A model generated the notes under the pieces. That model was given only the letters and a program-made list of their open reading frames with translations, searched no databases and was not told the origin of the DNA. Positions 5,659 through 23,992 of a DNA stretch of 54,572 nt are shown here, in pieces (within the stretch, counting starts at the first letter, position 1; every line of letters starts with the position of its first letter). A program made the translations under genes and the position numbers. The stretch spans positions 1 through 54,572 of the forward strand of contig NZ_WTYM01000042.1 of the NCBI RefSeq assembly GCF_009827435.1, written 5' to 3'. The DNA is from Croceibacterium salegens (GTDB taxonomy: Bacteria > Pseudomonadota > Alphaproteobacteria > Sphingomonadales > Sphingomonadaceae).

Positions 5659-5683
5659 CCTGCTCTCTCCCCCGGACCTGTCG

Positions 5684-8526: not shown

Positions 8527-8675
8527 GCCCCAGCTCCCAAACCAAAGCGTCCTGGGTAGACCCTAACGCTGTTCCAACTGGGTCGCTAGGGGCTTGCACA
8601 AGGCATGCGAGGTGCTGTCAGGCTAATCGCAATTTGTCTCCGATTGGCAGAGACCGTCCCTATCTCGACAAGCCT

Positions 8676-8998: not shown

Positions 8999-9133
8999 GG
9001 CCATCGGGTTTCATGGGGCGAGTTAGCGCCCCGCCCTGCCCTCAACTCCTTACCAGCTGATGCATTTGCTCTTACGGGACCGTTGCGGACGTTGGCGAGG
9101 ACCGAGGCAAACCTCAGCGGCCGCCCAAGTTGC

Positions 9134-9145
9134 GCAATCGATTGC
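9134..9145. promoter_or_regulatory. LacI-type operator, site 1
   Basis: GCAATCGATTGC is a perfect 12-base palindrome within TGCGCAATCGATTGCACA, 42 bases upstream of the SGNH hydrolase ATG. It is one of five copies of the same sequence between 9.1 and 23.9 kb, and the central CG step is typical of LacI-family operators. Confidence 0.75.
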
Positions 9146-9187
9146 ACAATAGCTCGGAGATGATAATCTCGACGAAGGGAGACGAAT

Positions 9188-10492
9188 ATGGGCCGGTTTG
9201 CCGTCTTTGCCGCATTGCTGCTGTGTAACACTCTTCCCGCTTACGGGGCCGGCCCGACAAAATGGATCGAAAGTTGGGGCACCGCCTTGCCCCTGCTCTC
9301 ACCGCCGCTGCCACCCGCCGACGCCTCACCTCCTCCTGCGCCTAGCAACAGTCAGGCGAACGGAACACCGGCCGCCCGGCCTCCGAACCCACGGCGTGCA
9401 CGACCACAATCCTTCCAGGACAACACCATCCGAATGATTGTGCGCACAGGCGCCGGCGGACCGGAGTTCAGGATAGAGTTTGCCAACGTCCAGGGGGGTG
9501 AGCCCATAAGGTTCGCAGCTATTCACGCAGCGCTCGCCGGACCTGCCGGCTCTATCATTCCCAGTACCGATCGCACCGTAACCTTCGGCGGACGCGAGTC
9601 CCTGACCTTGTTTCCAGGGAGCCGGGCGGTCAGCGACCCCGTGCCGCTTGCCGCTCCGCCCCTGACCGAAGTGGCTGTGTCCGTGTACCTTCCCGACGAA
9701 GTACAGGCGAATACCGTCGATGAGATCGGCCTCATGCCGACTTACATCGCGGCCGGAAATCAAACCTCGGCAGAGAGTCTTGACGAGGCCGCCGTCGCAG
9801 GCTCCTATTTCTGGTTGCGTGGGCTGAGCGTACCGACACCTGATGTCGATTCTGGCACGATCGTAGCCTTTGGGGACTCGATCACTGAAGGCTACGCTAC
9901 GACCTTCGGCGCACACATGAGTTGGCCCGAATTGCTCGCAGTACGGTTGCAGAAGGACCCTGAGCTTTCGAACTGGAGCGTGGTCAACGCCGGTATTTCG
10001 GGCAATCGGGTCCTGCGAACCGGAGCCGGCGAATCCGCTCTCGCACGCTTCACCGACGACGTGCTCGGCCGACCCGGTGTGAAATGGGTCATCGTGTTGG
10101 AATCAATAAACGACATCAATTTCTCGATCATGCCTGGCTTTCCCAGGGATCAGGCGGCAACCGCCGATGAACTGATCGCCGGGCTCGACCAGCTCATCAC
10201 CCGCGCGCACCTGCATGGCATAAAGATTGCCGGCGGCACTGTGATGGCGACCAAGGGACTGCCGTTCTATTCGCAGGAAGGCGAGGCTATGCGGCAGGCA
10301 GTCAATGACTGGATCCGCACCAGCGGTCGCTTCGACGCGGTGATCGACTTCGACGCGGCGACCCGCGATCCGGCTGATCCCTTGCGCATTCGTCCCGACC
10401 TTGATCCCGGCGACCACGTCCATCCCAACGACGACGGCAACCGGATCATGGCCGACACGATCGACCTCGACATTTTCCGCACCACCAAGTGA
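9188..10492 (+). CDS. Secreted SGNH/GDSL hydrolase with N-terminal accessory domain
   Basis: A 434-residue esterase. A signal peptide (about residues 1-21, ending AYGAG) is followed by a Pro-rich linker (about 35-75) and a beta-rich accessory domain (about 78-215). The SGNH domain then carries Ser231 in FGDSITEGY (block I), Gly in NAGISGNRV (block II), Asn in ESINDINF (block III) and Asp409-His412 in DHVHPND (block V). The family removes acyl groups from sugars, polysaccharides or lipids. The gene sits directly behind LacI operator site 1 and ends seven bases from the convergent tannase-family gene. It is probably part of the sugar-ester regulon, acting in the periplasm or outside the cell. 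Confidence 0.9.
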   Translation: MGRFAVFAALLLCNTLPAYGAGPTKWIESWGTALPLLSPPLPPADASPPPAPSNSQANGTPAARPPNPRRARPQSFQDNTIRMIVRTGAGGPEFRIEFANVQGGEPIRFAAIHAALAGPAGSIIPSTDRTVTFGGRESLTLFPGSRAVSDPVPLAAPPLTEVAVSVYLPDEVQANTVDEIGLMPTYIAAGNQTSAESLDEAAVAGSYFWLRGLSVPTPDVDSGTIVAFGDSITEGYATTFGAHMSWPELLAVRLQKDPELSNWSVVNAGISGNRVLRTGAGESALARFTDDVLGRPGVKWVIVLESINDINFSIMPGFPRDQAATADELIAGLDQLITRAHLHGIKIAGGTVMATKGLPFYSQEGEAMRQAVNDWIRTSGRFDAVIDFDAATRDPADPLRIRPDLDPGDHVHPNDDGNRIMADTIDLDIFRTTK

Positions 10493-10498
10493 GCGCGA

Positions 10499-12163
10499 TC
10501 ATTCCTCGCAAGTGAAGCTGGCAGCACTGTTCGTGTCGCCGCCGCTGTAGCGCGCGACCTTCGGCCAGGGGCAGAGGGGGCGGGAAATACCGGGCATGCT
10601 GCTGCTGGTGGCAACGATTTGGTCCGGTGGCCTGCCCTTCTCGACCCAGTCGACGATCGCGTCGAGCATCTCGAACCTGTCGGTCGCCTCGCCGCCGCCA
10701 CAGTGCAGCATTCCCGGCACGCCGAAGAAGCGCACCGCTTCGCGGCCCGGCTCGCCCGTGGCGGCTATCATCGCCTGGTACCACCGAACGATTTCCGGCG
10801 TCGACATGCCCTGGTCGGCCATACCGTTATAGACGATCATCTTGCCCTTCCGCGCGAAAGTCGAGAGCAGCGGGTTGTCGGCGTCGCCTATCCCACCCTG
10901 GTAACGGATACGCTCAAGCAGGTCTTCGACCGTGTAGGGTTGCAGTGGATCCCAATCGGGGTCCGCCGGGGTGAGCTGCAGATAGCGGAACTGGCCGAGA
11001 CCGAGAGTCGAGTCCGCCGAATTGGGCTCGCCCGTCGCCGAGGTTCCCAGTTTCATGCCGCGCCAGGCCGACGAGGCGATGCCCGTGTCATACGTGTACG
11101 GGCCGTAAATATGGCGCCCGGTGGTGGTCATCGGTCCCTGGAACAAGTCGTTCAGCACCGAAACCTTCGCTTCGCTGAGGCAACCTTCCGACTGTCCTGA
11201 CCTGCAGGTGAGTTCGCGCGGATGAAAGCCGCATGACTTCCAGTCGTTGATGAACCCATCGGCCAGTCCGTCGAGACCGTCGCACCTGGCGAGAACGGCC
11301 TTGCGGACTAGCTGGAGGTCGTCGTCGGTGAACGCCCTGGAATAGATCGGGCGACCCGCATCGTCCTTCGGGGAGATGCGGGCAACGACCTGCATGTTCC
11401 ACACTTCGCCCAATGCGAGGCGCGAGAAGCCCATCGCCGGGTCGCCGGCAACCACTCCATCGAATTCGAGCGGTAACCGCTGCGAGGCCATGAGCGCCTG
11501 ACGCCCGCCGTTCGAGCAGCCGACGAAATACGAACGGTGCGCCGGCTTGCCATAGAACTCAGCGAGGATTCGCTTGGACTCGTTGGTCACCTTGTCGAGC
11601 GCGTTGTAGGCGTAATCAATCCGCGCCTGTTGGTCGACGCCGAAGCTGGCATCGACGATCGGTCCACTATGCCCGCTGTCCGTCGAGGCGACGGCAAAGC
11701 CGCGCGCCAGCGCCGGAAGGCCCGGCGAATTTGCCAAGTTGCCGACCGCAGGCATGACCTGCCCATCGAGGCCCCCGCCGCCCTGGAACATGAAGCGGCC
11801 GTTCCATCCGGTCGGCAGGCGCAGTTCGAAGCCGATCCCGAATTCACGCTCGCCAACCCCAGTGCGCCGGTCGATGACGCCCCGGACCAGGCAATGCTCG
11901 GGCAGGTCGCGCGGTTTGGCGCCCGGCAGGGCCGGAGTCGGGCCGGGCGGCACGAGCTCAGCCCGTTCGATCAGGACTCCGTCGCGAGAGATTCCAAGCA
12001 GCGCGGCGCAGCGCTCGGCCGCCTTGCTGCTGTCCCTTGCGGAAGTCGGCGCCAGACCGATCGCTAGGGCCGTGATCGCCGCCGAAAACGCAAGAGAGCG
12101 CTTTGCTGTTCTCGCTGTTCCCGCACCCGGCAAATTCTCGGCTAGTCGTTCAAAGCGCCGCAT
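10499..12163 (-). CDS. Tannase/feruloyl esterase family hydrolase, exported
   Basis: A 554-residue protein starting MRRFERLAEN, with GGGGGAGAA upstream. A hydrophobic export segment spans about residues 21-42. The catalytic set of the tannase family is visible: Ser218 in GCSNGG, Asp450 in NGMADQG and His487 in MLHCGGG, with Cys216 and Cys488 positioned for the disulfide that joins Ser and His neighbours in this family. A calcium-loop-like CDGLDGLADG lies at about 294-303. Such enzymes hydrolyse feruloyl, galloyl or related phenolic esters. It is the third gene of an operon after GH68 and fructokinase, which suggests that it strips phenolic acids from a sugar ester. Confidence 0.9.
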   Translation of the reverse strand: MRRFERLAENLPGAGTARTAKRSLAFSAAITALAIGLAPTSARDSSKAAERCAALLGISRDGVLIERAELVPPGPTPALPGAKPRDLPEHCLVRGVIDRRTGVGEREFGIGFELRLPTGWNGRFMFQGGGGLDGQVMPAVGNLANSPGLPALARGFAVASTDSGHSGPIVDASFGVDQQARIDYAYNALDKVTNESKRILAEFYGKPAHRSYFVGCSNGGRQALMASQRLPLEFDGVVAGDPAMGFSRLALGEVWNMQVVARISPKDDAGRPIYSRAFTDDDLQLVRKAVLARCDGLDGLADGFINDWKSCGFHPRELTCRSGQSEGCLSEAKVSVLNDLFQGPMTTTGRHIYGPYTYDTGIASSAWRGMKLGTSATGEPNSADSTLGLGQFRYLQLTPADPDWDPLQPYTVEDLLERIRYQGGIGDADNPLLSTFARKGKMIVYNGMADQGMSTPEIVRWYQAMIAATGEPGREAVRFFGVPGMLHCGGGEATDRFEMLDAIVDWVEKGRPPDQIVATSSSMPGISRPLCPWPKVARYSGGDTNSAASFTCEE

Positions 12164-12190
12164 CTGTTCTCCCCCACCTCGTTCCCGTAC

Positions 12191-13084
12191 CTAGCTGCTC
12201 GCCATGCGCGCCAGCTCGATCGCCCCCATCGGCCCAGCCTGTTCGGCAAGCGCGGCGAGGACAATAATCCCGTCAACCGTGCGCGTATCGACATACGGCA
12301 AATATCCGCCGACGCTACGCACGGCCTCGGCGCGGAGCATCGGCAACAGGAACGAACGCTGCAGCGACACGCTGCCTCCAAGCACGATCCTGTCGGCGGA
12401 CGTCGTCAGGAGAATCGTTGCGGCCAGTTGGCCGAGATCCGCCGCCACGTCGCTCCAGCGCGGATCATCGTCGGGGATCGCTTCGCCCGCCATGCCGAAG
12501 CGCGCGGCGAGCGCCGGGCCGCTGACCAGCCCTTCGATGCAATCGCCGTGGAACCGGCAATTGCCGGCAAAGTCGTCGCCACGCACGCGGCGCAGGGTGA
12601 GATGACCGAGCTCAGGGTGCATTGCCCCGTGAACGGGCTGGCCGCCGACCAGCAGGCCACCGCCTATTCCCGTGCCGATGGTAATGTAACAAACACTGTC
12701 GCAGCCTCGCGCCGCGCCCAGCCGGTACTCGGCGAGCGCTGCAGCGTTGACATCGGTGTCGATGCGGAAGGGGCAGTAAATGCCCTCCATGAGCAGCGGG
12801 CCGACTCCCGCGCCGCTCCAGCCGGGCTTGGGTGTGTCGAGGATATGCCCGAATCGCGCATTGCCTGATGCCAACGCAATCGGGCCGAAACTGGCGATCC
12901 CGATACCGGCGAGAGGCCGATCGTTGTCCCACCGGCGCAGAAACTTGTTCAGCGCTTCGAGTGTCTCTGCGGGCGCTCTCGTCGGTATCGTGTGACGGTC
13001 GATGATCCGATCGCCGTCGGAAAGAACCGCGATAGCTTTGGTGCCGCCCAGCTCGATTCCGGCAAGGCGCGCTGCTTCGGGCAT
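12191..13084 (-). CDS. ROK-family sugar kinase, probably fructokinase
   Basis: A 297-residue ROK kinase. GIELGGTK (residues 9-16) and TIGTGIGGG (135-143) bind ATP phosphates, DTDVNAAALAEY supplies the catalytic Asp111, and the ROK zinc site is present as His156-x4-His161 (HPELGH) plus Cys176, His179 and Cys182 (CRFHGDC). The HPELGHL-plus-Cys pattern and the overall sequence resemble ROK fructokinases, which convert fructose to fructose 6-phosphate in the cytoplasm. The ATG follows the stop of the GH68 gene after one base. The pairing with a sucrose-splitting enzyme strongly supports fructose as substrate. Confidence 0.88.
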   Translation of the reverse strand: MPEAARLAGIELGGTKAIAVLSDGDRIIDRHTIPTRAPAETLEALNKFLRRWDNDRPLAGIGIASFGPIALASGNARFGHILDTPKPGWSGAGVGPLLMEGIYCPFRIDTDVNAAALAEYRLGAARGCDSVCYITIGTGIGGGLLVGGQPVHGAMHPELGHLTLRRVRGDDFAGNCRFHGDCIEGLVSGPALAARFGMAGEAIPDDDPRWSDVAADLGQLAATILLTTSADRIVLGGSVSLQRSFLLPMLRAEAVRSVGGYLPYVDTRTVDGIIVLAALAEQAGPMGAIELARMASS

Positions 13085-13085
13085 G

Positions 13086-14249
13086 TCAGGTCACCAGCTC
13101 CGCTTTGGCGCCATCGAGCACGAGGCGCAGGACCGGCGCGAAGGTTCCTCCGAACCTGCGGACATCAGGTGGCCCATCAGGCGAACGCCAGTCGTCGACG
13201 AAACTGATGACTTCGAGGCTGGGAAGCACAAGCCAGCTGTAGGCTTGGCGCGGTGCCACGCTGGGATTGGCGAACACAAGTCCCGTACCGTTGAGCGGCT
13301 CCCACGGCCCGGACAAGCGAGCCCCAACCACGCCGTAAAGTCCGGTCGGCCCTGTCGGTCCGCTGGCATCGAAGACGTGCCGCTGGGTCGACCAGAACAG
13401 GTAATAGTGGCCGTCACGGCAGACCGCGTGCGGACGCTCGAGCTCGTTGTTGAGACCGTCCGCGCTGATAACGGGTGGAACGATGCGCCATTCGGCCAGA
13501 CCTTCGCCTTCGGCTACTGCGGCCCCGACGATCCCGTTGAAATCGGACTTCGATCGCGCAGCCGATGCTGCGAAGAAGAGGTAACTGGCGCCGTCGGCAG
13601 GATCGAGGAAATAAGCCGGGTCGCGAAACGCTTTGATGGTCCCGATTGCCCCGGTGCCGGCATCGCTGGCCATGTAGTGGGCCGGGTCGGGCCGGACGAT
13701 CTCCTGCAGATCGTGCCAGCCGTCGATGCGCGGCTGCCCCCGGACAAGGTCGAGCGTCGCCCGGGCCCGAAAGATGCGCTGCAAAAAGCTCGCTTGCGCC
13801 TCGCCCCGCGTACCTGTCGCAGTGAAATACAACGTCACTTCGCCGGATTCCGCGACGAGGACCGCCGAACCGGACCATTCGCGGCTGCCGGGTGAAAATC
13901 CTTCGGGCATAGCCGGGCCGAGATGGAGCCAGCCCCGATCCTGCAACTGCAACAAATGTATTCGCGCCTTGTCATGGCGCTTGTCGGGGTCAGGGTCGCG
14001 CGGGGCACCCAGAGCCATCCACAGCGAACTCCCGTCGGGGAGCACGGCGGGCATGCCGTCGGGCCGCTGGATCGGCCATGCGTCCCAGATGTCGAGATCG
14101 TCGGCAATGCGCGTGATGTCGCCGGCCTCGATCCGCGGAGCGGATGCGAGTGGCATTTGCGCTATTCCCTGCACGTGTTCGCCAGTCCAGAAGAATTGGG
14201 AGCCGGCGCGTTCCGCGTCACCCGGCCGCGTTTGCGCGACCGACGTCAA
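13086..14249 (-). CDS. Glycoside hydrolase family 68 enzyme (levansucrase/beta-fructofuranosidase)
   Basis: A 387-residue GH68 protein. The nucleophile is Asp56 in DIWDAWPIQ, the transition-state stabiliser Asp210 in AFRDPAYFL, and the acid/base Glu271 in ELERPHAV; REWSGSA, LNGTGLVF and FGGTFAPVL are further family blocks. It splits sucrose, releasing glucose and either transferring fructose to levan or to water. The start used is TTG 14249; ATG 14156 is in frame but would remove the conserved FFWTGEHV region. No signal peptide is visible from either start. Zymomonas levansucrase and invertase also lack classical signals, so secretion cannot be excluded. It is the first gene of an operon behind LacI operator site 2. 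Confidence 0.9.
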   Translation of the reverse strand: MTSVAQTRPGDAERAGSQFFWTGEHVQGIAQMPLASAPRIEAGDITRIADDLDIWDAWPIQRPDGMPAVLPDGSSLWMALGAPRDPDPDKRHDKARIHLLQLQDRGWLHLGPAMPEGFSPGSREWSGSAVLVAESGEVTLYFTATGTRGEAQASFLQRIFRARATLDLVRGQPRIDGWHDLQEIVRPDPAHYMASDAGTGAIGTIKAFRDPAYFLDPADGASYLFFAASAARSKSDFNGIVGAAVAEGEGLAEWRIVPPVISADGLNNELERPHAVCRDGHYYLFWSTQRHVFDASGPTGPTGLYGVVGARLSGPWEPLNGTGLVFANPSVAPRQAYSWLVLPSLEVISFVDDWRSPDGPPDVRRFGGTFAPVLRLVLDGAKAELVT

Positions 14250-14378
14250 CGAACTGGGTCCACCATTGCGGACCGGTCGCTGCTGCCTCGCCGTTCTACA
14301 CGCTGCCAGTCCGGCATCTCACTCCACCCCTATCGAATGCTCGTTGCGTCCGACTTCCTAGTCAATCGAACTAGCAAC

Positions 14379-14392
14379 TGCAATCGATTGCA
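14379..14392. promoter_or_regulatory. LacI-type operator, site 2 (perfect 14-base palindrome)
   Basis: TGCAATCGATTGCA is the most symmetric copy. It lies in the divergent promoter region, 129 bases upstream of the GH68 start on the minus strand and 73 bases upstream of the alpha/beta hydrolase start on the plus strand, so one site could control both units. Confidence 0.8.
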
Positions 14393-14465
14393 ATTGCGTG
14401 TTATCGCGCTTTCTTCCACTAGATGGCGGGTGGTCGAATGAAAACACTAGGGAGATGCGGACGAG

Positions 14466-15521
14466 ATGCACAGACGGCAATTCATGCGGGCGACCGCGAC
14501 GGTATTGGCTGGTATCGCAACAGCTCCAGACCTGAGCGTTGCTGCAGAGCCGTCAGCGTTTGATCCGGTCGCCTACCTCGATCCCGAACTTAGGGCGGCA
14601 GCACGGCAAATGCTTTCGGGAGGAGGCCTCCCGCTCGATGCCAATTCGCTTCCCGCCATGCGGGCGCAGCAGGCCGCTGGAGCAGAGCCCCCGCTGACGG
14701 ACGTCCCGGTCTCGCAACGAACCGTCGTCGGAACGAACGGGATGCCTGATGTAACCGTCTACGTCGTCAACGCTGCAAAAGGCGGCGCGCGGCCCGGGAT
14801 CCTCCATACCCACGGCGGCGGGCACATTCTCGGTTCGGCGAAAAGCGAGCTGCGTTACCTGCAAAACCTCGCCCGCGATCTCGACTGCGTGCTGGTGACG
14901 GTCGAATACCGTCTCGCTCCGGAAACCCGTTACACCGGCTCGATCGAGGACAACTATGCCGCTCTCAAGTGGATGCACAGTTCAGCGAACGAACTCGGCC
15001 TCGATGCAACTCGAATCGCACTGTTGGGCGAAAGTGCCGGAGGCACACATGCGGCATTGTTGGCGATAACCGCGCGCGACCGAGGCGAGGTGCCGGTGCT
15101 CTTCCAATGTCTGGTCTATCCCATGCTCGACGACAGGACCGGCAGCACTCGGCAGCTGCCGCCATGGATCGGGGCGGTGCTTTGGACGCGCGATGCGAAT
15201 CGCTTCGGCTGGCGAGCTTTCACCGGCGGCGAGCCGGGTACGCTTGAAATTCCGGCAGCGGCGGTGCCAGCACGAGTAGACAATCTTGCGGGACTGCCGC
15301 CAGCCTGGATCGGCGTGGGCGGAGCCGATCTCTTCGTCGAGGAAGACATTGAATACGCCGAGCGCCTGAACGACGCAGCCGTTCCCACCGAGTTGCTGGT
15401 TTTGCCACGCGCGTTCCATGCCTTCGACCGGATCGTACCCGATGCCGGGGTCTCACGCAGGTTCACCGCCGCGAAGATGGATGCCCTGCGACGCGCATTC
15501 GGAAAGTCCGCCGACGCCTGA
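14466..15521 (+). CDS. HSL-type alpha/beta hydrolase with Tat-like signal
   Basis: A 351-residue esterase. The N-terminus MHRRQFMRATATVLAG is a Tat-like signal with a probable cleavage near VAAEP. The hormone-sensitive-lipase family motifs are present: HTHGGGH as oxyanion hole (115-120), Ser190 in GESAGG, Asp in GVGGADLFVEED and His in PRAFHAFD. Family members hydrolyse short-chain acyl esters. The gene is divergent from the GH68-kinase-tannase operon and shares its operator. It ends three bases from the convergent MFS gene. Export through Tat and co-regulation suggest deacylation of an imported or periplasmic sugar ester. Confidence 0.88.
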   Translation: MHRRQFMRATATVLAGIATAPDLSVAAEPSAFDPVAYLDPELRAAARQMLSGGGLPLDANSLPAMRAQQAAGAEPPLTDVPVSQRTVVGTNGMPDVTVYVVNAAKGGARPGILHTHGGGHILGSAKSELRYLQNLARDLDCVLVTVEYRLAPETRYTGSIEDNYAALKWMHSSANELGLDATRIALLGESAGGTHAALLAITARDRGEVPVLFQCLVYPMLDDRTGSTRQLPPWIGAVLWTRDANRFGWRAFTGGEPGTLEIPAAAVPARVDNLAGLPPAWIGVGGADLFVEEDIEYAERLNDAAVPTELLVLPRAFHAFDRIVPDAGVSRRFTAAKMDALRRAFGKSADA

Positions 15522-15524
15522 CCC

Positions 15525-16826
15525 TCATGCCGCCGCGGCGGTGGCCGCCTCCGCCTTGTTGAGCCGGTAGTCATCCTCGTTGCGCTCGATGAGGCGCGCA
15601 GCGAAGGGCTGTCGCAAGACATTCCAGGTGCATTGCGCGACCAGCATTGTCGCGAACACCGCGCCGAGCACGATTGCGTACTTGCTGTCGCCAAGGGCAT
15701 CGCCCAGCGCGCCCATTGCGAGCGGCGCGAAGACGGCGCTGATGCAGGTAAAAAACAGTAACAGGCCCGCGATCGAACCGTGACGGCCCTTGTCGAAACA
15801 GCTGATCCCGGTCGAATTGATCGTCGGATAGAGCACCGACATGAAAAGGCCGGTCGCTGGCAACGCGAAAATCGCAACCTCGCGCCCGCCGACGACCGCG
15901 ACCCAGAAAAGCGCTGCCATCGCCGCACTGCAGGCCAACAGGACTTTCGTCCAATCGAACCGCGCCGGGAGCCAGACGCCGAGAAACCGGCCGGCCGCGC
16001 GCAACACGAAGAAGATCGAAACCGCGTAGGCGGCGAGTGCAGTCCAAGAGCCTTCGTAGGCGGCAAGGTAGGTTGGCGCCCAGACGTAAATCGCGGCTTC
16101 TGCGGCTACGTAGAGCATCAAGGCCGAGCCAAAGAACAGCGCCGTCGGATCGCCCGCCAGCCGCACTGCCTCGGTCGGCCGGGTCGGCTCGGAACGGTGG
16201 ATGATCGGACGGGGGAACTTCGCCATCGCAGCGGCGAGTATCAGTGCGCCGCACAGCAGCGCCGCGATCAGGTAGACGCCCTTCCAGCTTGCTCCGACCT
16301 GCACCAGATATGCGACGATTGCCGGACCGATGATCGCGCCAACGCCGAAGAAGCCCTCTATCAGGTTCATTGTCCGGGCATGTTCGCGTGTGGAGCGCGA
16401 GAGATCGCCGATCAGCGCCAAGGCGCCCGACTTGAAAATGCCGATGCCCAGGCCCGAGACGAACAGCAGCAATACGAAGAATAGGAAGTCGTGGCCGGCG
16501 GCGAAGGCGGCGGAACTCAGGCCGAACATGATGAGCCCGATCAGGATCGTCACCTTACGGCCCAGCCGGTCGGCTAGGAAACCGAGCGCAATGGCGGAAA
16601 TCGCAATGCCGGACATCGTCGCGTACTGAAACGAGCCGCCGGCAGTGAGCCCAAGATCGAATTCGCGAATGACCTCGGGAATCACGGTGCCGACGGAATC
16701 AGTCGTCATCGCGAACATCGCGAACATGGCAAAGACGAGCGCCTTCAGCACGAGCGAGCCGCCATCCGGAGTGTTTTCGGAATTAGTCTGCAAGGTGCTT
16801 CTCGAAGAAATCGACCATGATCGCAT
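15525..16826 (-). CDS. MFS transporter, third gene of the ceramidase-like operon
   Basis: A 12-helix major facilitator protein of 433 residues. TM1 begins near LVLKALVFAMFAM, and GFLADRLGRKVTI is the loop 2-3 signature; later helices include AEAAIYVWAPTYL and LLFFTCISAVFAPLAMG. Its N-terminus overlaps the end of the upstream esterase. ATG 16826 is the longest start, but TTG 16793, preceded by GAGAAG and overlapping the esterase end by only 11 bases, is equally credible. It probably imports a product of the exported hydrolases (a sugar or an organic acid). The substrate cannot be told from sequence. Confidence 0.85.
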   Translation of the reverse strand: MRSWSISSRSTLQTNSENTPDGGSLVLKALVFAMFAMFAMTTDSVGTVIPEVIREFDLGLTAGGSFQYATMSGIAISAIALGFLADRLGRKVTILIGLIMFGLSSAAFAAGHDFLFFVLLLFVSGLGIGIFKSGALALIGDLSRSTREHARTMNLIEGFFGVGAIIGPAIVAYLVQVGASWKGVYLIAALLCGALILAAAMAKFPRPIIHRSEPTRPTEAVRLAGDPTALFFGSALMLYVAAEAAIYVWAPTYLAAYEGSWTALAAYAVSIFFVLRAAGRFLGVWLPARFDWTKVLLACSAAMAALFWVAVVGGREVAIFALPATGLFMSVLYPTINSTGISCFDKGRHGSIAGLLLFFTCISAVFAPLAMGALGDALGDSKYAIVLGAVFATMLVAQCTWNVLRQPFAARLIERNEDDYRLNKAEAATAAAA

Positions 16827-17886
16827 AGGCCTCGCGGGATTCGGGTAGTTCGGAATTGTAGAAGAACGCGTGGTTCATGCTGTCCCAGGCGTGGAACTGC
16901 GAATCCACACCGCCGGCGGCCAGCTTGTTGTGCGAATCGAGCGCCATCGACATCTCGAACGAGCGTGTTCCACTGATGAACAGCGTGGGCGGGAAGCGCT
17001 TCATCACCTCGATCGAGGCGACCGGATAAGCTAGCGGATCGTCCCGCCGGGCCGCATCGAGATAGCCTGGAGCGGAGGAACGGGGCGGTCCCCCACCACC
17101 TGGCTTGCGCACCAGCGGCGGTAGCATACCGTTGAGCGGCCCGGCGATGGCCGACATGTCGCCGCCGAAATATCCCCCAAGCGACGCGCAGAACACGCCG
17201 ACCGCGGCTGGGTTGGGCAGGTCATGGGCTTCGAACCATGCGATCGACTGCGCGGCGAGGAAACCACCGGCAGAACAGCCAAAGAGCCCGATCCTGCTGG
17301 CATCGTAGTGCTTGAGAACCTCGCGATAGACCTTCTCGACATCCTCGCTCGCCGCCGGGAACTGGTATTCCGGCGCCATGCGGTAATCGATCGAGATCAC
17401 CTTGATTTTCATCAGCGCCGCCAGCGGGACGGATTCGACCAGCGATGCCGAGCGCCCACCTGTGACAAAGCCGCCGCCGTGGAGGTTGATCAGGACCCGG
17501 TCGGCATTCTCGGGCGCGATTCCGCCGGCCGGCGTGACCACGTCGGTCACGATTCCGCCGATCGTCTCTTCGGCCACATCGACGGCGTAACGCTCGCGCA
17601 TCGGCGCGAGGAAGTCGAACATGATACCGTCCTGCCGCTTGCGCTCCTCGCGGATGTCCGGGAGCGCAGCGCCGAACGGCTTGTCGACGATTACGTGCCG
17701 CATGTACTCGCGCGCTTCCTCGCTCATGAGCGGAGAAAGCGGGATGGTCACGCCGTCGAGCTGCACCGCGCCGTCTTTGGAAATTCGGTCGTCGACCGGG
17801 TCCTGCGCGGCAGCGGGCGCGACAAGCAGGCAGGCCCCGGCTGCCAGACCGCACATGATCGCAACAGGACGCCTTACCGAAGTCAT
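16783..17886 (-). CDS. HSL-type alpha/beta hydrolase, exported, with altered catalytic-acid motif
   Basis: I start at ATG 17886, which overlaps the upstream stop as ATGA; the frame extends to 17946 inside the previous gene. The 367-residue product has a signal peptide ending APAAAQ, an HGGGF oxyanion motif (136-140), nucleophile Ser205 in GCSAGG and His339 in MNHAFFY. In related enzymes the acid follows SGTR, as in GTRD; here residue 309 is Ser (ISGTRSFEM), so the usual Asp is missing and another residue may serve, or activity may be reduced. It lies in the operon of the ceramidase-like gene and MFS transporter behind LacI operator site 3. Confidence 0.82.
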   Translation of the reverse strand: MTSVRRPVAIMCGLAAGACLLVAPAAAQDPVDDRISKDGAVQLDGVTIPLSPLMSEEAREYMRHVIVDKPFGAALPDIREERKRQDGIMFDFLAPMRERYAVDVAEETIGGIVTDVVTPAGGIAPENADRVLINLHGGGFVTGGRSASLVESVPLAALMKIKVISIDYRMAPEYQFPAASEDVEKVYREVLKHYDASRIGLFGCSAGGFLAAQSIAWFEAHDLPNPAAVGVFCASLGGYFGGDMSAIAGPLNGMLPPLVRKPGGGGPPRSSAPGYLDAARRDDPLAYPVASIEVMKRFPPTLFISGTRSFEMSMALDSHNKLAAGGVDSQFHAWDSMNHAFFYNSELPESREAYAIMVDFFEKHLAD

Positions 17887-19265
17887 TTTCCCGCGATCTC
17901 CTGCTCGAGGTCGAGCAGGCCGTTGACGATCGAATCCTCCGCGCATCCCGGCTTGAGGCGCGACGACAGGACTTCGAATGTATACTGGCCGTAGGCAGCA
18001 TCGTTGGGGATATAGCCGGAAGGCGCCATGCCGCCTGTCAACGTCACCATCATCGTGTTTGCATAGGGCGACTCGCGCTTGAAGCGCTGTGCGATAAGGG
18101 TGAAGATCTCCGCGTCCACTCCGCCGATCACCACGTCCCCGATCTTTAGCATGCTGAGCTTGAGAGGGACCGGATCGGCGTCTTCATAGCTTCCGGCATA
18201 GCCCGCACGCCCCTGATCGAGACGCTTGCGGCCGGGACAGGACACGGACTTGATGGCGCCGCCGATGGCAACTTGCTGCTGCGGGCGTTGCAGGTTGTCT
18301 CGCATCACGTGCAGCACTTCTTCCGCCAGCATCAGGCCAAGCGCACTGTTCACTTGCTTCTGCTGGTCGAGAAGCAGCTGGACACGCGGATTGCCACGGT
18401 CCAGCCCTTCGCCACCCGGCGGCATGGAATTGGAAATGTCTTCGCCCCGCGCAGCGTAGTCGCGAATGCGGATTTCGCGCAGGTCGTAGGTCTGGTTGAA
18501 AAAAATCGGATTCTGGTCGCCAGAGGCACCGCTCGACCAGACCGCCACAGCGTCGCCGCCGAGCGATGCCTCGAGGTAGTTCGATGCAGCTCCAGGAATG
18601 TCGGCGCTGACCATGTCAAGATTGCCGGTGATCACCGGATGTACGGCATAGTTGTAGTAGACCCCGATTGGATCTCCACTCAATGCCTCGAATCGCATCA
18701 CGCCGACCGTCTTGTCAGAAGCGCCGTCGTAGTTCGGCCCTTCCCACCAGCGATGGGTCTTGGGATCGACAATGTTTCGGTTTACGTTGATCCAGGACTT
18801 TCCGGTCCCGAAGGCCATGCGCGCGGGTTGCAGCCTTTTGACCGCCGCGCGCACAGCCTCGAAGATCTGCGCTTCGTATCCGTCGTTGCGCACAAACGGC
18901 GCGCTGTGGGTATGCGTTGCCGTGAGCATGAAATGATCGGGCGCTATGCCGAGTTCATTCGCGGCCCGTTCGCTAAGCCTCTTCCACAACGCGGTCGGGA
19001 TGGCCCCGGCGTCGACCGTCACGAGGGCGGCACGGCCGTGCCCGTTGTCGACAACTATGGCGCGGGCGTAGAGCGGGTCGAGCACGCCGTGCGACTGAGG
19101 AGGAAGACTGTCCGGTGCGGGGGTTATGTCGACTTTGGCCGCGCCTGCCTGCAATCCCCCCGTCTCTTCGGTCGCGTTCGCAGGAATGGAGAGAAACGCG
19201 ACCATCAGGACGACGATCAGCGCGAGCGAGCGCCTTCCGAAGCTGGATGGATGGATAACAGCCAT
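17883..19265 (-). CDS. Neutral/alkaline ceramidase-like hydrolase, exported
   Basis: The start is ATG 19265 with GGGAGAG five bases before; a TTG at 19277 is also in frame. The 460-residue product has a signal peptide (hydrophobic LIVVLMVAFLSIPANA) and the N-terminal domain of neutral non-lysosomal ceramidases: LQAGAAKVDITP, ATHTHSAP (metal-binding histidines), YYNYAVHPVITGN, GASGDQNP and later LTGGMAPSGYIPND. Classical members hydrolyse the amide of ceramide with a zinc ion, and are longer, near 650-750 residues, with a C-terminal domain that is absent here. Short bacterial homologues have unproven substrates. It is the first gene behind LacI operator site 3 and may cleave an ester or amide of the locus substrate. 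Confidence 0.8.
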   Translation of the reverse strand: MAVIHPSSFGRRSLALIVVLMVAFLSIPANATEETGGLQAGAAKVDITPAPDSLPPQSHGVLDPLYARAIVVDNGHGRAALVTVDAGAIPTALWKRLSERAANELGIAPDHFMLTATHTHSAPFVRNDGYEAQIFEAVRAAVKRLQPARMAFGTGKSWINVNRNIVDPKTHRWWEGPNYDGASDKTVGVMRFEALSGDPIGVYYNYAVHPVITGNLDMVSADIPGAASNYLEASLGGDAVAVWSSGASGDQNPIFFNQTYDLREIRIRDYAARGEDISNSMPPGGEGLDRGNPRVQLLLDQQKQVNSALGLMLAEEVLHVMRDNLQRPQQQVAIGGAIKSVSCPGRKRLDQGRAGYAGSYEDADPVPLKLSMLKIGDVVIGGVDAEIFTLIAQRFKRESPYANTMMVTLTGGMAPSGYIPNDAAYGQYTFEVLSSRLKPGCAEDSIVNGLLDLEQEIAGK

Positions 19266-19290
19266 TTTCTCTCCCAACCCTTGCGATTCT

Positions 19291-19302
19291 GCAATCGATT
19301 GC
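19291..19302. promoter_or_regulatory. LacI-type operator, site 3
   Basis: GCAATCGATTGC, within TGCAATCGATTGCG, lies 25 bases upstream of the ceramidase-like start and about 110 bases upstream of the divergent LacI gene. It could mediate both repression of the operon and autoregulation. Confidence 0.77.
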
Positions 19303-19413
19303 GATCGAGCTTAGGGCCATGTTACCGGTCAAGCAACATGACATGCAATCCGGCTCGGTGGCGATTACCCTTGACCGCGCCGGAGGTGTGGTTTCCGTAA
19401 GGCCAAAGCTTCA

Positions 19414-20478
19414 TTGGGACAGGGCGAGACGTTGGCGAAAAAGAAGGGATCGGGCGACGAGAATTCCTCGGGCAGGCCGCAGAATATCCAGGAGCTGGCG
19501 CAAATCGCCGGGGTGTCGGCGGCCACAGTATCGCGCTCGCTCGCCGGTACTGGCAAGATTGCGCCGGCGACGCGCGAACGCATTCGCAAACTGGCCGACG
19601 AGCTTGGCTTCCGCCCCAGTACCATGGCCCGGAACCTGCGCACGGGCAGGACCGGCACCATCGGGGTGATCGTCCCGCTCGGTCACGAGAAAACCCAGCA
19701 CATCTCCGACCCGTTCTTCATGACCCTGCTGGCGCATATTGCCGATCGCCTGGCCGACCGCGGATACGACCTGCTGCTCAGCCGTGTCGTACCGCATGAC
19801 CCGGAATGGCTGTCGCGCCAGGTCGATTCCGGTCGTGTCGACGGGATGATCATAATCGGGCAGTCGAACCAGTCGGACGTGATCAACAGCGTCGCGCGAT
19901 ATTACAGGCCGATGGTCGTGTGGGGCGCGGAGCTACCGGGACAGCTCTATTGCTCGGTCGGCAGCGACAACCGGCTCGGTGGGCGGATCGCCACGGAGCA
20001 CCTTCTCTCGCTGGGATGTCGCAGGCTGGCCTTCTTCGGCGATGCCTCGGTGCCCGAAGTCGAGCAGCGCCTCTCGGGATTTCGCGACGCGCTGCGCGAA
20101 GCAAGCGATGGTGCGGTCGGCGCCACGCTGCCCGTGCATTTCGTCCCCGAGCGAGCAGTGGAAGAGATCTCGGGATTTCTCGACTTGGCCGAGAATCTCG
20201 ATGGCATCTTCGCGACCTCGGACTCGATTGGCATGATGGCCATCCAGGCGCTCATCGAACGAGGGCGCAGCGTACCGGGCGAGGTGAAAGTCATCGGCTT
20301 CGACGACCTCGACATTGCCCGCCGAGTCCTTCCACCTTTGAGTTCGATCAAGCAGGACCTGGAAGCAGGTGCGGATGCTTTGGTCGACCTGCTTTTCCGC
20401 AAGATCGCAGGGGAAGCGGTGGATTCGGTCCAACTTGAACCGACGTTGGCCGCACGAGGTTCGACACTCTCCGATTGA
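19414..20478 (+). CDS. LacI-family transcriptional regulator, likely master of the sugar-ester locus
   Basis: A 354-residue LacI protein from TTG 19414; TTG 19432 is an alternative start preceded by GGGCGAG and would leave the domain intact. The N-terminal helix-turn-helix is NIQELAQIAGVSAATVSRSL, followed by the hinge region PSTMARNLRTGRTGTIGVIVP. The periplasmic-binding-protein-like effector domain contains DGMIIIGQS, SVGSDNRLGGRIATEHLL, GIFATSDSIGMMAIQAL and VKVIGFDDLDIARRVLPPLSSIKQD. The family binds sugars or sugar derivatives. Five palindromes with central CG lie upstream of the surrounding transcription units, including one beside its own promoter, which makes it the obvious binding candidate. 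Confidence 0.92.
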   Translation: MGQGETLAKKKGSGDENSSGRPQNIQELAQIAGVSAATVSRSLAGTGKIAPATRERIRKLADELGFRPSTMARNLRTGRTGTIGVIVPLGHEKTQHISDPFFMTLLAHIADRLADRGYDLLLSRVVPHDPEWLSRQVDSGRVDGMIIIGQSNQSDVINSVARYYRPMVVWGAELPGQLYCSVGSDNRLGGRIATEHLLSLGCRRLAFFGDASVPEVEQRLSGFRDALREASDGAVGATLPVHFVPERAVEEISGFLDLAENLDGIFATSDSIGMMAIQALIERGRSVPGEVKVIGFDDLDIARRVLPPLSSIKQDLEAGADALVDLLFRKIAGEAVDSVQLEPTLAARGSTLSD

Positions 20479-20520
20479 GAGAATTTGTCGCGCCGATTTA
20501 CCTCTCATCGACATTGCAGT

Positions 20521-20532
20521 GCAATCGATTGT
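20521..20532. promoter_or_regulatory. LacI-type operator, site 4
   Basis: GCAATCGATTGT, within GTGCAATCGATTGTCT, has one mismatch to the consensus palindrome. It lies between the end of the lacI-type gene and the TonB-dependent receptor, 94 bases upstream of the receptor ATG. Confidence 0.72.
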
Positions 20533-20626
20533 CTAAATTGCATTGACAGAGGTGAGTTCCTGCGAAATTTAAGGGACACTCAACAATGGACCCGCAAGGG
20601 CAATCGTTTGAAACGGGAGAGTGGAC

Positions 20627-22780
20627 ATGAGGTATTTGCGGGGCACCGCGGCAGTGGCCGCACTTGCTGCAAGCCTAGCTGCGAGCGCTGTAAATGCGCA
20701 GGAACAGCAGCAGGCGAACGATGGCGACGGCTCGGAAGCGAGTGACGACGCTAAGAAGGCGGCGACAACCACAGCCGGAGGCAACGAAATCCTTGTCACC
20801 GCTTCCAAGACCGGGGCGCAGGACATCCAGGATGTGCCGCTGGCAATCCAGGTATTCAGCGGCGACGAGCTGAAGGAACGCAACATAACCACGATCGGGG
20901 ACCTCGTCTCGAGCGTCCCGGGTGCTTTCGAGGGCTTCCGCCAATCGAACGGTTCGCGATTCTACAACTTGCGCGGCAACGTAACCCAGAACGGCGACTC
21001 TCCGATCGGGTATTACCTTGACGACACACCGTTCATCGTCACCAATTTCGGTATCGCCCCGCCAGTGCGGTTCATCGACATGGAGCGCGTCGAGGTCCTC
21101 CGCGGACCGCAGGGCACTCTCTACGGGCAGGGCTCATCGGGCGGCGTGTTCATCTTCCACACCCGCGACCCGGATCTAAACAACTTCGAATACTCGTTCG
21201 AGGTCGAAGGGTCCAAGACTGTCGGCGCCGACAAGTTGAACTACGGAATGGCCGGCGCGCTCTCGGTCCCGATCGTGCAGGATCGCTTTGCAGTTCGGGT
21301 CAGTGGGGGTTTTTCACAGGACGCGGGATGGGCTGACGCCTATTTCGGCCCCTACGATGGCACCCCCGACGAGAAGGGCGTCAACAAGGCCAAGAATGAC
21401 GATATCAGGGTCGTCGCCCTGTTACGGCCATTCGACAACGTCAATATTCGCGCGCAGTACTGGCACTTCCGGCCGCGCCAAGGCTTCACCGGCTTCACTG
21501 CATCGGTCGATCCGCCCTACTACCAAAACACGGCCGGGCAGGAAGGTTACTCCAACGGCAGCTTCACGCTCTGGAGCCTGACGGGGACCGTTGACTTCGA
21601 CGCCTTCACCGTCACCAGCGCGACGAGCAACCTCGAAGGCGTCTTCGGGATCAATATTCCGATCTCGCCGGCAGGCTTCTTCTCGAGCCAGTTCCTGCCC
21701 AAGATGTTCGCGCAGGAACTGCGCATCAACTCTTCGACCGACGGTCCGCTGCACTGGGTCGTAGGCGGAGCCTACCAGAACGGGAAGGGACCGCAGGTGA
21801 ACGCGCTGCAGATTCCGCCGTTCGGCGTCGACATCAACGCGGACAACAACACGCTGACCAAGAACTGGGCCCTGTTCGGCGAAATCAGCTACGACCTGCT
21901 CGACGGGAAGCTAGTGCCGCTGGTCGGCCTCAGAACCTATCACGACAAGCGTTCGTTCGAAGATACGGGCGGCACCGTGCCGACCAAGGCGAACAAAGAG
22001 ACCTGGCGCGCCAACCTTTCGTACATTCCCAACGACGACCTGACGATGTTCATCTCGGCGGCCACCGGCTTCCGCCCCGGCATCGTCCAGTCGCGCGTCC
22101 AGGTCCAGTCGCTCGAGCTGGCCGGCGTCCCGGCAATGGTGGCGCTCGAACCGGAATCCTCGCGCAACTACGAGTTCGGACTCAAGTGGCGCAACCCGGC
22201 CCGTACCCTGAACGTCGGCCTGAATCTGTACAGTCTCAAGTACACCAACCTGCAGACTTCGGTCACGGGCGGCATCCAGGGCGTGAACGGATTCGCAAAC
22301 TTCGGAGACGCGACCACACAGGGCATCGACCTCGAAGTGCGCTGGGACACACCGATCGAGGGACTCAATCTCGGGTTCGTGGGCAACGTGAACGATAGTC
22401 AGTACGATTCCGTAAATCCCGTGATTGCTGCTGCCCAGCCGCTGCTCAAGCCCGGGGACCGGCTGCTCAACACGCTCGCAAACAACTACCGTGCCGATAT
22501 CAATTACAACCGCGAAATCGCCAACGATTTCGATGGTTTCGGCAACCTGTCCTTCAGCCACAGCGGCGATCGTCTGCAGGCCAACGGACTGACTGCCCAG
22601 CCGTACAACCTGCTCGCCCTGACGATGGGCATTCGCCATGCCAACTGGGAACTGGCATTCGTCGGCAACAACCTGACGGACGAACGCGGGCCGACCTTCC
22701 TCGGCACGAACGGGCCGCTATCCGGCTCAGGACCGACGCCACGTACACTCGGTTTCCGCTTCCGCATCAACTCGCGGTAA
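20627..22780 (+). CDS. TonB-dependent receptor of the LacI-controlled locus
   Basis: The start is ATG 20627 with GGGAGAG upstream; a GTG two codons earlier is in frame. The 717-residue receptor has a signal peptide ending SAVNAQ, a Gln/Asp-rich spacer, the TonB-box-like EILVTASKTGAQDIQDVPLAIQV, a plug with VRFIDMERVEVLRGPQGTLYGQGSSGG, and a barrel that ends LGFRFRINSR. The last residue is not the usual Phe. It imports a substrate through the outer membrane. Its own operator copy and location directly after the LacI gene make it the likely uptake system for the acylated or sucrose-containing compound processed by the neighbouring esterases and GH68 enzyme. Confidence 0.92.
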   Translation: MRYLRGTAAVAALAASLAASAVNAQEQQQANDGDGSEASDDAKKAATTTAGGNEILVTASKTGAQDIQDVPLAIQVFSGDELKERNITTIGDLVSSVPGAFEGFRQSNGSRFYNLRGNVTQNGDSPIGYYLDDTPFIVTNFGIAPPVRFIDMERVEVLRGPQGTLYGQGSSGGVFIFHTRDPDLNNFEYSFEVEGSKTVGADKLNYGMAGALSVPIVQDRFAVRVSGGFSQDAGWADAYFGPYDGTPDEKGVNKAKNDDIRVVALLRPFDNVNIRAQYWHFRPRQGFTGFTASVDPPYYQNTAGQEGYSNGSFTLWSLTGTVDFDAFTVTSATSNLEGVFGINIPISPAGFFSSQFLPKMFAQELRINSSTDGPLHWVVGGAYQNGKGPQVNALQIPPFGVDINADNNTLTKNWALFGEISYDLLDGKLVPLVGLRTYHDKRSFEDTGGTVPTKANKETWRANLSYIPNDDLTMFISAATGFRPGIVQSRVQVQSLELAGVPAMVALEPESSRNYEFGLKWRNPARTLNVGLNLYSLKYTNLQTSVTGGIQGVNGFANFGDATTQGIDLEVRWDTPIEGLNLGFVGNVNDSQYDSVNPVIAAAQPLLKPGDRLLNTLANNYRADINYNREIANDFDGFGNLSFSHSGDRLQANGLTAQPYNLLALTMGIRHANWELAFVGNNLTDERGPTFLGTNGPLSGSGPTPRTLGFRFRINSR

Positions 22781-22800
22781 AGGACGTCGAGCCAATCTGG

Positions 22801-22835
22801 GAAGCGGCCGCCTGGATCATGCAGGTGGCCGCTTC
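22801..22835. terminator. Bidirectional hairpin between convergent genes
   Basis: GAAGCGGCC and GGCCGCTTC form 9-base arms, extended by CCTG/CAGG inside, around a loop centred on GATCATG. It sits between the receptor stop (22780) and the stop of the convergent SGNH gene (22837). There is no T run, but placement and stem strength fit a shared terminator. Confidence 0.7.
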
Positions 22836-22836
22836 G

Positions 22837-23757
22837 TCAATTCTGCGACCGTTTCAGCGCCGCTGAAAGAGCGTCCTGCGCTAGCGACTCCATCACCGCA
22901 TAGCCGGCGCGAGTGGGATGGACTCCGTCATTGGCATAGGCTGGATCGAACGAGCCATCGGGGGCGGCAAGAGGCGCGTAATAGTCGACCCATTGTGCCC
23001 CATAGTCGTGAGCAAGCTTTTCCATCCGGGCATTGAGCTGGGGAACGACGGGCCGCGTGTCGAATTCCGGCCTCGGCAAGAGGCGGGACATCGGAGGAAT
23101 TCCAGCCAGCACAACTGCGATGCCATTGGACTTCGCCATGTCGAGCATGGCGCGAATGTTTGCGACAAATTCGTCCTCGGTAATCGGCCCGGTCGCTCCG
23201 CCTATGTCGTTCGTGCCGGCCATGATGTGCACAGCCTTGGGCCTCAGCGCGACGACGTCCTGCTCGAAACGCGCCACCATCTGGCTGCTGCTCTGACCGC
23301 TTATGCCCCTGTCGACATAATCGTTGCGCTCGAAGAAGTCGGGGTCTGCCTCGATCCATCCCTCGGTGATTGAATCGCCCATAAAGACTGCAGCCGGGTG
23401 CGCCCCTCGTTCGATTAACTCAGCATTGGCGTCGCGGTAACGGCACAGGAAAGGCCAATCCTCTGCGAACTGTTTCGCTTGCTGTGCACGGAACTGGGCC
23501 CCGATTTCGCTGTCGGAGTTGAAGAAGTCGCGCGCGCGCGCGGAAAGCGCATCTAGATCCTGCGGATTGGTATCGAACTGCCGTGCAAGCTGGTCCGCCG
23601 GTCGGGGGGCGTGCACGGGACATCGGATCTTCGTCCCGTTGACAGCGGCGTATTCCCTACCCTGCACGGTGGACGACGTAGCCTGTCCGTTGGCTGTCGC
23701 CGCAATCCCGACAAGACCCAAAAAGACGACGGTTAGGCTGGTTCGCACAGCAGTCAT
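22837..23757 (-). CDS. Secreted SGNH/GDSL hydrolase
   Basis: A 306-residue esterase with GGGAGAG just upstream of ATG 23757. The signal peptide ends near ATANGQA. SGNH blocks are clear: Ser129 in FMGDSITEGW, Gly in DRGISGQSS, Asn in MAGTNDIGG and Asp277/His280 in DGVHPTRAGY. The arrangement resembles acetylxylan or platelet-activating-factor-acetylhydrolase-like esterases. A LacI-type operator lies 59 bases upstream, so it is probably the sixth hydrolase of the regulon. It differs in architecture from the SGNH enzyme at 9188, lacking the accessory domain, so the two may remove different acyl groups. Confidence 0.88.
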   Translation of the reverse strand: MTAVRTSLTVVFLGLVGIAATANGQATSSTVQGREYAAVNGTKIRCPVHAPRPADQLARQFDTNPQDLDALSARARDFFNSDSEIGAQFRAQQAKQFAEDWPFLCRYRDANAELIERGAHPAAVFMGDSITEGWIEADPDFFERNDYVDRGISGQSSSQMVARFEQDVVALRPKAVHIMAGTNDIGGATGPITEDEFVANIRAMLDMAKSNGIAVVLAGIPPMSRLLPRPEFDTRPVVPQLNARMEKLAHDYGAQWVDYYAPLAAPDGSFDPAYANDGVHPTRAGYAVMESLAQDALSAALKRSQN

Positions 23758-23815
23758 GCGCTCTCCCGAAATGTTATGTTTCGATGCGCGAGTTTGACCG
23801 AGTGCCGCCGAAGGT

Positions 23816-23827
23816 GCAATCGATTAC
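23816..23827. promoter_or_regulatory. LacI-type operator, site 5 (imperfect)
   Basis: GCAATCGATTAC, within GTGCAATCGATTACAT, keeps the CAATCGATT core but has a changed right arm. It lies upstream of the SGNH gene at 22837-23757 and 165 bases upstream of the GntR-type start on the other strand. Confidence 0.62.
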
Positions 23828-23992
23828 ATGTACAGAAGACCCGGCGCAGACACCGCCTTTCGACTCCGGTCTCCGAATTCGGTCAGGATGCGCAAAGCCG
23901 AGATTAGGGTGGCAAAAGTGCCGACGGAATGCATTGATGGGAACAGCGGACTTTGCGCCGGCTGGCCGATCATCCGACAAAGGCCGCGAAAT

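Follow-up and report, generated by a model that had tools for sequence, protein, structure and literature searches.

A local LacI-family regulon of sucrose and esterase genes in Croceibacterium salegens and its possible role in the catabolism of acylated sucrose

Introduction

Why would one LacI-type repressor control the genes of a sucrose pathway together with those of six ester hydrolases? A stretch of 54,572 nucleotides from Croceibacterium salegens (NCBI RefSeq assembly GCF_009827435.1, contig NZ_WTYM01000042.1, positions 1 to 54,572; hereafter the window) raises this question. An original prediction, made from the sequence alone, had described five copies of a palindrome around a LacI-family gene as a local LacI regulon and had given no purpose for it. 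It is very probable that a single sugar-sensing repressor uses the five palindromes as its switches. New here are the content of the regulon beyond sucrose and its reading as a putative system for acylated sucrose.

Results

The operator sites

All five palindromes were present at the positions predicted, and they precede the five units that had been named: two SGNH hydrolase genes, the GH68 operon with a divergent esterase gene, the ceramidase-like operon and a TonB-dependent receptor gene. For four of the five sites the predicted coordinates describe a 12-bp core; the 14-mer was used here. The predicted list had overlooked a sixth, weaker site, which lies 79 bp past the 20520 site, is identical in the related locus L049 and has a counterpart in locus L047. 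The sites, none of which is assigned a strand, are the following.

9133-9146, operator CGCAATCGATTGCA, 1 mismatch to the 14-mer, 41 bp before the start of SGNH1
14379-14392, operator TGCAATCGATTGCA, 0 mismatches, common to the GH68 operon and the divergent esterase gene EstA
19290-19303, operator TGCAATCGATTGCG, 1 mismatch, between the ceramidase-like operon and lacI
20520-20533, operator TGCAATCGATTGTC, 2 mismatches, about 10 bp before a conserved TTGAC (-35-like) in the receptor promoter
20599-20612, weaker operator-like site GGCAATCGTTTGAA, 3 mismatches, directly before the receptor start
23815-23828, operator TGCAATCGATTACA, 1 mismatch, 57 bp before the start of SGNH2

The window holds 8 matches to the 14-mer with up to 3 mismatches, compared with a mean of 2.66 and a largest value of 7 in 100 shuffles. 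In a window scan with a weight matrix built from the five sites, these five scored 21.2-26.6, followed by 20599 (12.7) and 17239 (12.5, within the EstB gene). No score above 11.3 was found outside 9-25 kb, in agreement with the predicted confinement of strong copies to 9-24 kb. The 19290 site also lies upstream of lacI, and autoregulation of lacI is therefore possible. A mechanically called open reading frame begins at 23828, inside the 23815 site; it belongs to a GntR-type gene whose true start, judged by eye, is probably near 23993.

In the whole genome of 3,636,778 bases, the 14-mer occurred at 12 places with up to 2 mismatches, five of them the window sites, and the reversed control at 2; at up to 1 mismatch there were 4 copies, all four within the window. 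The remaining 7 places are isolated and lie inside open reading frames. Mechanical frames cover much of the genome's DNA, but five of these were recognisable by eye as genes (an amidase, rpsR, tsaD, an alpha/beta-hydrolase and a LysR regulator); the other two are less sure. The original prediction had named many copies in coding DNA elsewhere as the finding that would speak against it; genome-wide, these seven places were all that appeared, and a motif common in coding DNA is ruled out.

The genes of the cluster

The five strong sites and the weak one lie in a cluster of eleven genes.

9188-10492, plus strand, SGNH1, probably exported SGNH/GDSL hydrolase (PF13472, 2.5e-27; N-terminal signal by eye)
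10499-12163, minus strand, tannase/feruloyl-esterase family protein, MHETase-like, probably exported (PF07519, 6.4e-108; MHETase structure 8ekg, 1.1e-94)
12191-13084, minus strand, ROK fructokinase-like sugar kinase (PF00480, 5.9e-49)
13086-14249, minus strand, GH68 levansucrase/beta-fructofuranosidase family protein (PF02435, 2.1e-59; motifs WDAWP, RDP and ERP)
14466-15521, plus strand, EstA, probably exported alpha/beta-hydrolase (HSL type, GESAG; PF07859, 1.1e-51)
15525-16826, minus strand, MFS1, inner-membrane transporter (PF07690, 8.9e-35)
16783-17946, minus strand, EstB, probably exported alpha/beta-hydrolase (HSL type, GCSAG; PF07859, 1e-31)
17883-19277, minus strand, neutral-ceramidase-fold hydrolase, probably exported (PF04734, 5.1e-16; Foldseek matches to neutral ceramidases; likely start ATG 19265)
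19414-20478, plus strand, LacI-family regulator (PF00356, 8.3e-13; PF13377, 9e-28)
20621-22780, plus strand, TonB-dependent outer-membrane receptor (PF00593, 8.5e-33; PF07715, 7e-17)
22837-23757, minus strand, SGNH2, probably exported SGNH/GDSL hydrolase (PF13472, 9e-29)

The genes for GH68, the ROK kinase and, last, the tannase-family protein run in one direction with short gaps, as do, in a second group of one direction, those for the ceramidase-like protein, EstB and MFS1; the likely start of EstB is 17886, overlapping the stop of the preceding gene. The GH68 gene is the only one found in the genome, in which no GH32 match passed the cut-off (one match reached 20.1 bits, cut-off 22.1). No export signal was seen by eye and hydropathy on the GH68 protein or the ROK kinase. 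Against the ScrK model the kinase scored 175.9 bits, under that model's cut-off of 400 bits. The lacI gene had been predicted at 19414-20478; its family assignment stands, with 48.3 bits for the PF00356 helix-turn-helix domain (cut-off 27) and 97.9 bits for the PF13377 sensor domain (cut-off 26.5), and its start is likely shifted to TTG 19432 by alignment with the orthologue from locus L018.

Linking the LacI protein to the sites

Three other LacI-family genes are present in the genome, and many regulators of this family bind CG-centred palindromes. The palindrome might thus belong to one of these other regulators or be common to several, yet no match with fewer than 4 mismatches turned up in the roughly 3-kb loci of these three genes, and the recognition helix differs in the two of the three proteins that were read. 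The assignment was followed further by scanning 61 genomes for the palindrome with no more than 1 mismatch. Besides the genome of the window, these comprised three sets of 20, namely those with the best LacI matches, those whose LacI match was weaker and those without a match at 1e-40. Forty-six near-perfect copies fell to the best-match genomes (17/20 genomes), and 27 of these lay no more than 20 kb from the LacI match, as opposed to 7 copies in 7/20 genomes of the weaker class and 5 copies in 4/20 genomes without a match; the genome of the window holds 4. The copies in the weaker and no-match classes leave some room for another regulator, but the copy number rises with the orthologue of the window's LacI, and we regard an origin of the sites in another LacI-family protein as highly improbable.

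An alignment of 19 LacI proteins retrieved 489 relatives in named genomes, and the best 80 of the 489 loci, by LacI similarity, were kept; by their titles they are mostly from Sphingomonadales and some from Caulobacterales. Some of these loci end at contig ends, so the gene counts in them are lowered. Their 1,479,571 bases contain 18, 85 and 204 palindromes at 0, up to 1 and up to 2 mismatches, compared with means of 0.015, 0.135 and 3.1 (maxima 3, 4 and 34) for 200 palindromes of permuted half-sites in the same loci. Only 1 of the 204 lies inside a matched gene vs 47.1 expected (gene matches covering at least 40% of the query). Chance palindromes are ruled out by the window, genome-wide, related-locus and multi-genome counts.

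The position of the sites was then counted from -350 to +50 of first genes at up to 2 mismatches, with +50 to +450 as control; each place was assigned a single gene from the matches that covered at least 40% of the query, and operon-internal genes were kept out. A site precedes 33/47 GH68, 8/9 ceramidase-like, 8/9 MFS1 and 9/13 receptor genes, 2/15 ROK genes and, as in the window, 29/65 lacI genes. The downstream control gave one site in total, at an EstA gene (1/15), and 0 for GH68, ceramidase-like and MFS1 genes. Sites also precede operon-internal genes (GH68 7/9, receptor 8/9, EstA 3/7). In the genomes G102 and G079, whose LacI proteins are 77% and 75% identical to that of the window, all 11 cluster genes and 10/11 (without the tannase gene), respectively, are kept together with the sites. 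The window regulon is, as far as sequence comparison reaches, a local form of a widespread sphingomonad regulon. As a side observation, locus L127 of Brevundimonas sp. SH203 (766-10981) carries LacI, a 42% receptor relative, and two EstA and one EstB matches with sites; no GH68 match was found in its 21 kb.

The clustering of sites in their own genome, the conservation of lacI, targets and sites, and the scarcity of the palindrome where the orthologue is missing support the local regulon originally proposed. On this evidence we consider a local regulon of the window's LacI protein near certain, and binding of the protein to the sites extremely likely. A global regulator is not supported: near-perfect sites in the genome are limited to the cluster, while in genus g69 the regulon extends as far as zwf and a remote receptor gene.

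Promoter layout

In the GH68 and MFS1 promoters, counted from the operator start, -10-like hexamers peak at offset 32 (7 of 52) and offset 33 (4 of 52), which is 17-18 bases past the TTG inside the operator; elsewhere there is about one per offset, and the next best single offset holds 4. Nine ceramidase-like promoters have a TTG-type element, and directly before the operator stands CTAT (5/9) or a near form (the others). In the receptor promoter, the operator is followed about ten bases on by the conserved TTGAC in 6/6 aligned loci, and a second site of GCAATC type near the start codon stands out clearly in the window, L047, L049 and L067 (Alteraurantiacibacter buctensis M0322), with degenerate forms in L068 and L070; by analogy, the two operators flanking a -35-like element may act as in double-operator repression. 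These positions relative to the promoter elements suit a repressor that blocks the polymerase, and it is highly probable that LacI acts by repression. In genome G224, two operators with a spacing of 23 bp come immediately after a TTGACA. Paired operators 21-24 bp apart also recur in the esterase-poor loci L080, L081, L091, L111 and L139, often before lacI.

Esterases, receptor and LacI lineages

Many relatives carry GH68 and fructokinase only, and two LacI groups add exported esterases. The window belongs to a LacI group of 8 rows (support 100), all with two or more of six esterase families; in a second group 14 of 15 rows have two or more. On the LacI tree, a quick tree with support from the Shimodaira-Hasegawa-like approximate likelihood ratio test only and several open forks, the esterase-poor label required 4 changes vs a shuffled mean of 20.4, and none of 500 shuffles was as low. 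A receptor of the window's type, at 60% identity or more and with a query-coverage limit of 25%, occurs in 14/22 named loci of the two esterase-rich groups and in 0/58 others. A receptor search independent of LacI, with three candidates scored per genome, found the receptor at 1e-120 in 7 of 298 genomes, and all 7 have a close upstream palindrome (up to 3 mismatches) and adjoining esterases. In G069 the receptor and ceramidase-like genes lie about 35 kb from lacI and share two sites in the stretch that separates them. This layout recurs in G193, there on another contig than lacI. No GH68 gene was seen in the 20 kb taken at the receptor locus of G134.

Two further lineages add genes of the acyl-coenzyme A (acyl-CoA) synthetase type. 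In G224, a single run of codirectional genes behind the twin operators, with overlaps or gaps of at most 98 bases, encodes in this order the receptor, GH68, the kinase, a beta-lactamase-fold esterase, an esterase of HSL type and an acyl-CoA synthetase. Plasmid pTomRC1a of the tomato-root Sphingobium sp. RC1 encodes GH68, fructokinase, LacI, the receptor (51%) and two esterases as well as three AMP-binding enzymes and an acyl-CoA dehydrogenase. Palindromes of the TGCAATCCATTGCA type precede its receptor, esterase and GH68 genes. The RC1 palindromes (L150, 17780, 17807, 27800, 35552 and 35578) have GG or CC rather than CG at their centre; despite this difference the recognition helix of the RC1 LacI, VSAATVSR, equals that of the window.

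A site at zwf, the gene of glucose-6-phosphate dehydrogenase, would be expected if sucrose carbon enters the Entner-Doudoroff route. In G193 (genus g69) a perfect palindrome precedes zwf, and G069 has a frame of equal length beside its perfect palindrome (palindromes at L155, 8305, and L156, 5401; Pfam on L156 only); the regulon may thus reach central sugar metabolism in this genus. The gene at 8374-9114 of L155, across a perfect palindrome, gave no Pfam match.

Individual hydrolases

MHETase is the best match of the tannase-family protein among solved structures; it shares family PF07519 with feruloyl esterases. The protein aligns with the residues that we take to be the catalytic Ser, Asp and His of MHETase. 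At the column that we take for Arg411, which presumably holds the carboxylate of mono(2-hydroxyethyl) terephthalate (MHET) in MHETase, a Phe is aligned and an Arg follows one residue on. A true MHETase was rejected on this binding residue, and the natural substrate is probably an ester other than MHET.

The model of the ceramidase-like protein (mean predicted local distance difference test score 73.6) is predicted to have a neutral-ceramidase fold: at E up to 0.001, 4 of 6 Foldseek matches were neutral ceramidases with probability 1.00 (best E 6.4e-23, TM 0.62 by query), and the other two were villin with probability 0.25 and 0.16. Conserved His, Glu and Tyr resemble what we take to be the zinc site of neutral ceramidases, whereas the motif GDVSPN, presumably that of the catalytic Ser, is replaced by GDQNP, which is present in 14/14 aligned ceramidase-like sequences. 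A true ceramidase was rejected on this motif.

Discussion

A catabolic system for acylated sucrose would account for the combination of these genes. LacI would repress its own gene neighbourhood through the five strong operators and the weak one. An acylated sucrose, e.g. a plant sucrose ester, would enter through the TonB receptor, and the exported esterases (two SGNH, two HSL-type, the tannase/MHETase-like and the ceramidase-fold protein) would remove the acyl groups in the periplasm or outside the cell. The MFS carrier would move the sucrose into the cytoplasm, where GH68 would split it and the ROK kinase phosphorylate the fructose, and sucrose or a derived sugar would release the repressor. 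The parts of this model differ in strength. The GH68 and ROK genes stand behind the 14379 site, a gene content as in sucrose regulons of the ScrR/SuxR type. With one GH68 gene in the genome, no GH32 match over the cut-off and a perfect site before zwf in a g69 genome, a sucrose core of the substrate is highly likely. Acylation is suggested by the six probably exported ester hydrolases behind the sites, by the way esterases track the LacI groups, by the esterases and sites that adjoin the receptor in 7/7 genomes, and by the gene sets of G224 and RC1. Acyl groups leaving as free acids, and their activation with CoA beside a sucrose enzyme, point to acylated sucrose, which we judge somewhat more probable than not. 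We lean to a similar degree towards the model as a whole, a LacI repressor of acylated-sucrose catabolism, and sucrose would be the favoured inducer, again by a modest preference.

Several observations weigh against this reading. All six esterase families are missing from 31 of the 45 long loci with GH68, and the other 14 carry at least two; GH68 therefore does not need esterases. Sites are less regular at first esterase genes than at GH68 genes (EstA 5/15, EstB 3/9, SGNH1 4/9, SGNH2 2/5, tannase 2/5). Acyl-CoA genes of the RC1 type were not seen in the window. When RC1 AMP-binding, acyl-CoA dehydrogenase and dehydrogenase proteins were searched against 101 related loci and the window, matches appeared in 8 of the 101 loci (L052, L062, L085, L110, L111, L117, L124 and L137, with L062 and L137 apparently from one genome) at 25-37% identity; the step from esterases to sucrose esters in the window is therefore inferred. 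Acyl-CoA genes as a general feature of the locus are accordingly not supported, although G224 has one in its operon. The Pfam match of the receptor is to a general TonB family and points to no particular ligand. The N-terminal signals that make export of all six ester hydrolases probable were judged by eye and hydropathy. Concerning the regulator, near-perfect sites are missing from three of the 20 best-match genomes. Of the 46 copies, 19 are either over 20 kb away from lacI or on a different contig, among them all 4 in G157 and every copy in G028 and G118; at least six of these 19 are regulon-like, namely two each at the receptors of G069 and G193 and one each at zwf.

Could the cluster be a regulon for plain sucrose, with LacI in control of sucrose uptake and GH68, sucrose acting as a signal of the plant and the co-controlled esterases attacking unrelated plant esters of cuticle, hydroxycinnamate or cell-wall acetyl type? 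The 31 long GH68 loci without the esterase families, many with the same palindrome, and the chemically broad esterase set speak for it. Yet an esterase shares the operon with GH68 both in the window (10499-14249) and in G224, where an acyl-CoA synthetase joins them, and the receptor type tracks the esterase-rich LacI groups (14/22 vs 0/58), so that we consider this explanation unlikely. The substrate might also be another acylated fructoside or fructan, such as an acylated oligosaccharide or a fructose-ending phenolic glycoside, instead of a sucrose ester. GH68 enzymes act on related fructosides too, and the presence of a tannase-like and a ceramidase-fold protein is a hint of bulky acyl parts. 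The genome, however, has no GH32 over the cut-off, and as no export signal was seen on GH68, only a small sugar would reach it; we find such a substrate quite improbable, less so only than the assignment of the sites to another LacI protein.

Acylated sucrose thus remains the preferred substrate, and sucrose systems already described share much of the proposed layout. The nearest working analogue is the sux locus of Xanthomonas campestris, described as sucrose-induced and composed of the TonB receptor SuxA, the amylosucrase SuxB, the carrier SuxC and the LacI-type SuxR (PMC1790865). Common to both are a LacI-type repressor, a TonB receptor and an inner-membrane carrier, and the receptor in the window likewise falls within the LacI regulon, judged by the 20520 and 20599 sites before its gene. 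In contrast to the sux locus, the window has GH68 and a ROK kinase plus six ester hydrolases, and no amylosucrase-type match was found among the cluster genes scanned with Pfam. SuxC is placed in the Na+-melibiose and H+ cotransporter family (PMC1790865), whereas the carrier of the window is of the MFS_1 type. A comparative study of LacI regulators reports eleven sucrose groups with the factors CscR, ScrR and SuxR and with sucrose genes including scrT, cscB, sut1, scrA, scrY, scrB, scrP and scrK (PMC4052901). Its regulons, as presented there, and that of the window have in common a local reach, a palindromic operator, and a fructokinase with a sucrose-splitting enzyme; words beginning with sphingomonad, TonB, esterase and levansucrase are absent from its main text. 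The tomato-root strain Sphingobium sp. RC1, whose plasmid carries the related GH68-LacI-receptor-esterase set, is the subject of a paper on saponin catabolism genes that treats tomatine (PMC10653915), the main text of which has no words beginning with acyl, sucrose, TonB or LacI.

Acylsugars are described as defensive compounds of tomato and its kin, and among the papers listed in searches of the open-licence literature we found none joining them to a bacterial uptake and catabolic locus. Tentatively, and with rather less confidence than we place in the model for the window itself, these clusters could represent a dedicated bacterial system for plant acylsucroses, be it sucrose esters made for defence in leaf hairs and roots, or hydroxycinnamoyl sucroses. 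Such a system, also present on plasmids, would have arisen from a plain-sucrose LacI regulon that gained esterases, a receptor and in some cases acyl-CoA synthetases, and its repressor would sense the sucrose core freed by the system's own esterases. If true, it provides a candidate receptor and candidate esterases for acylsucrose use and suggests what role the MHETase-like tannase may have in nature. Whatever the substrate, the analysis defines a regulon together with its operator across sphingomonads.

Beyond the cluster, another TonB receptor gene and a gene of the RPE65 family (carotenoid or lignostilbene oxygenase) lie to its left at 1996-8318. At the right end of the window (50090-54470), TrbE/VirB4-like and CagX-like conjugation genes were observed, and given these genes the cluster may ride on a plasmid or an integrative element.

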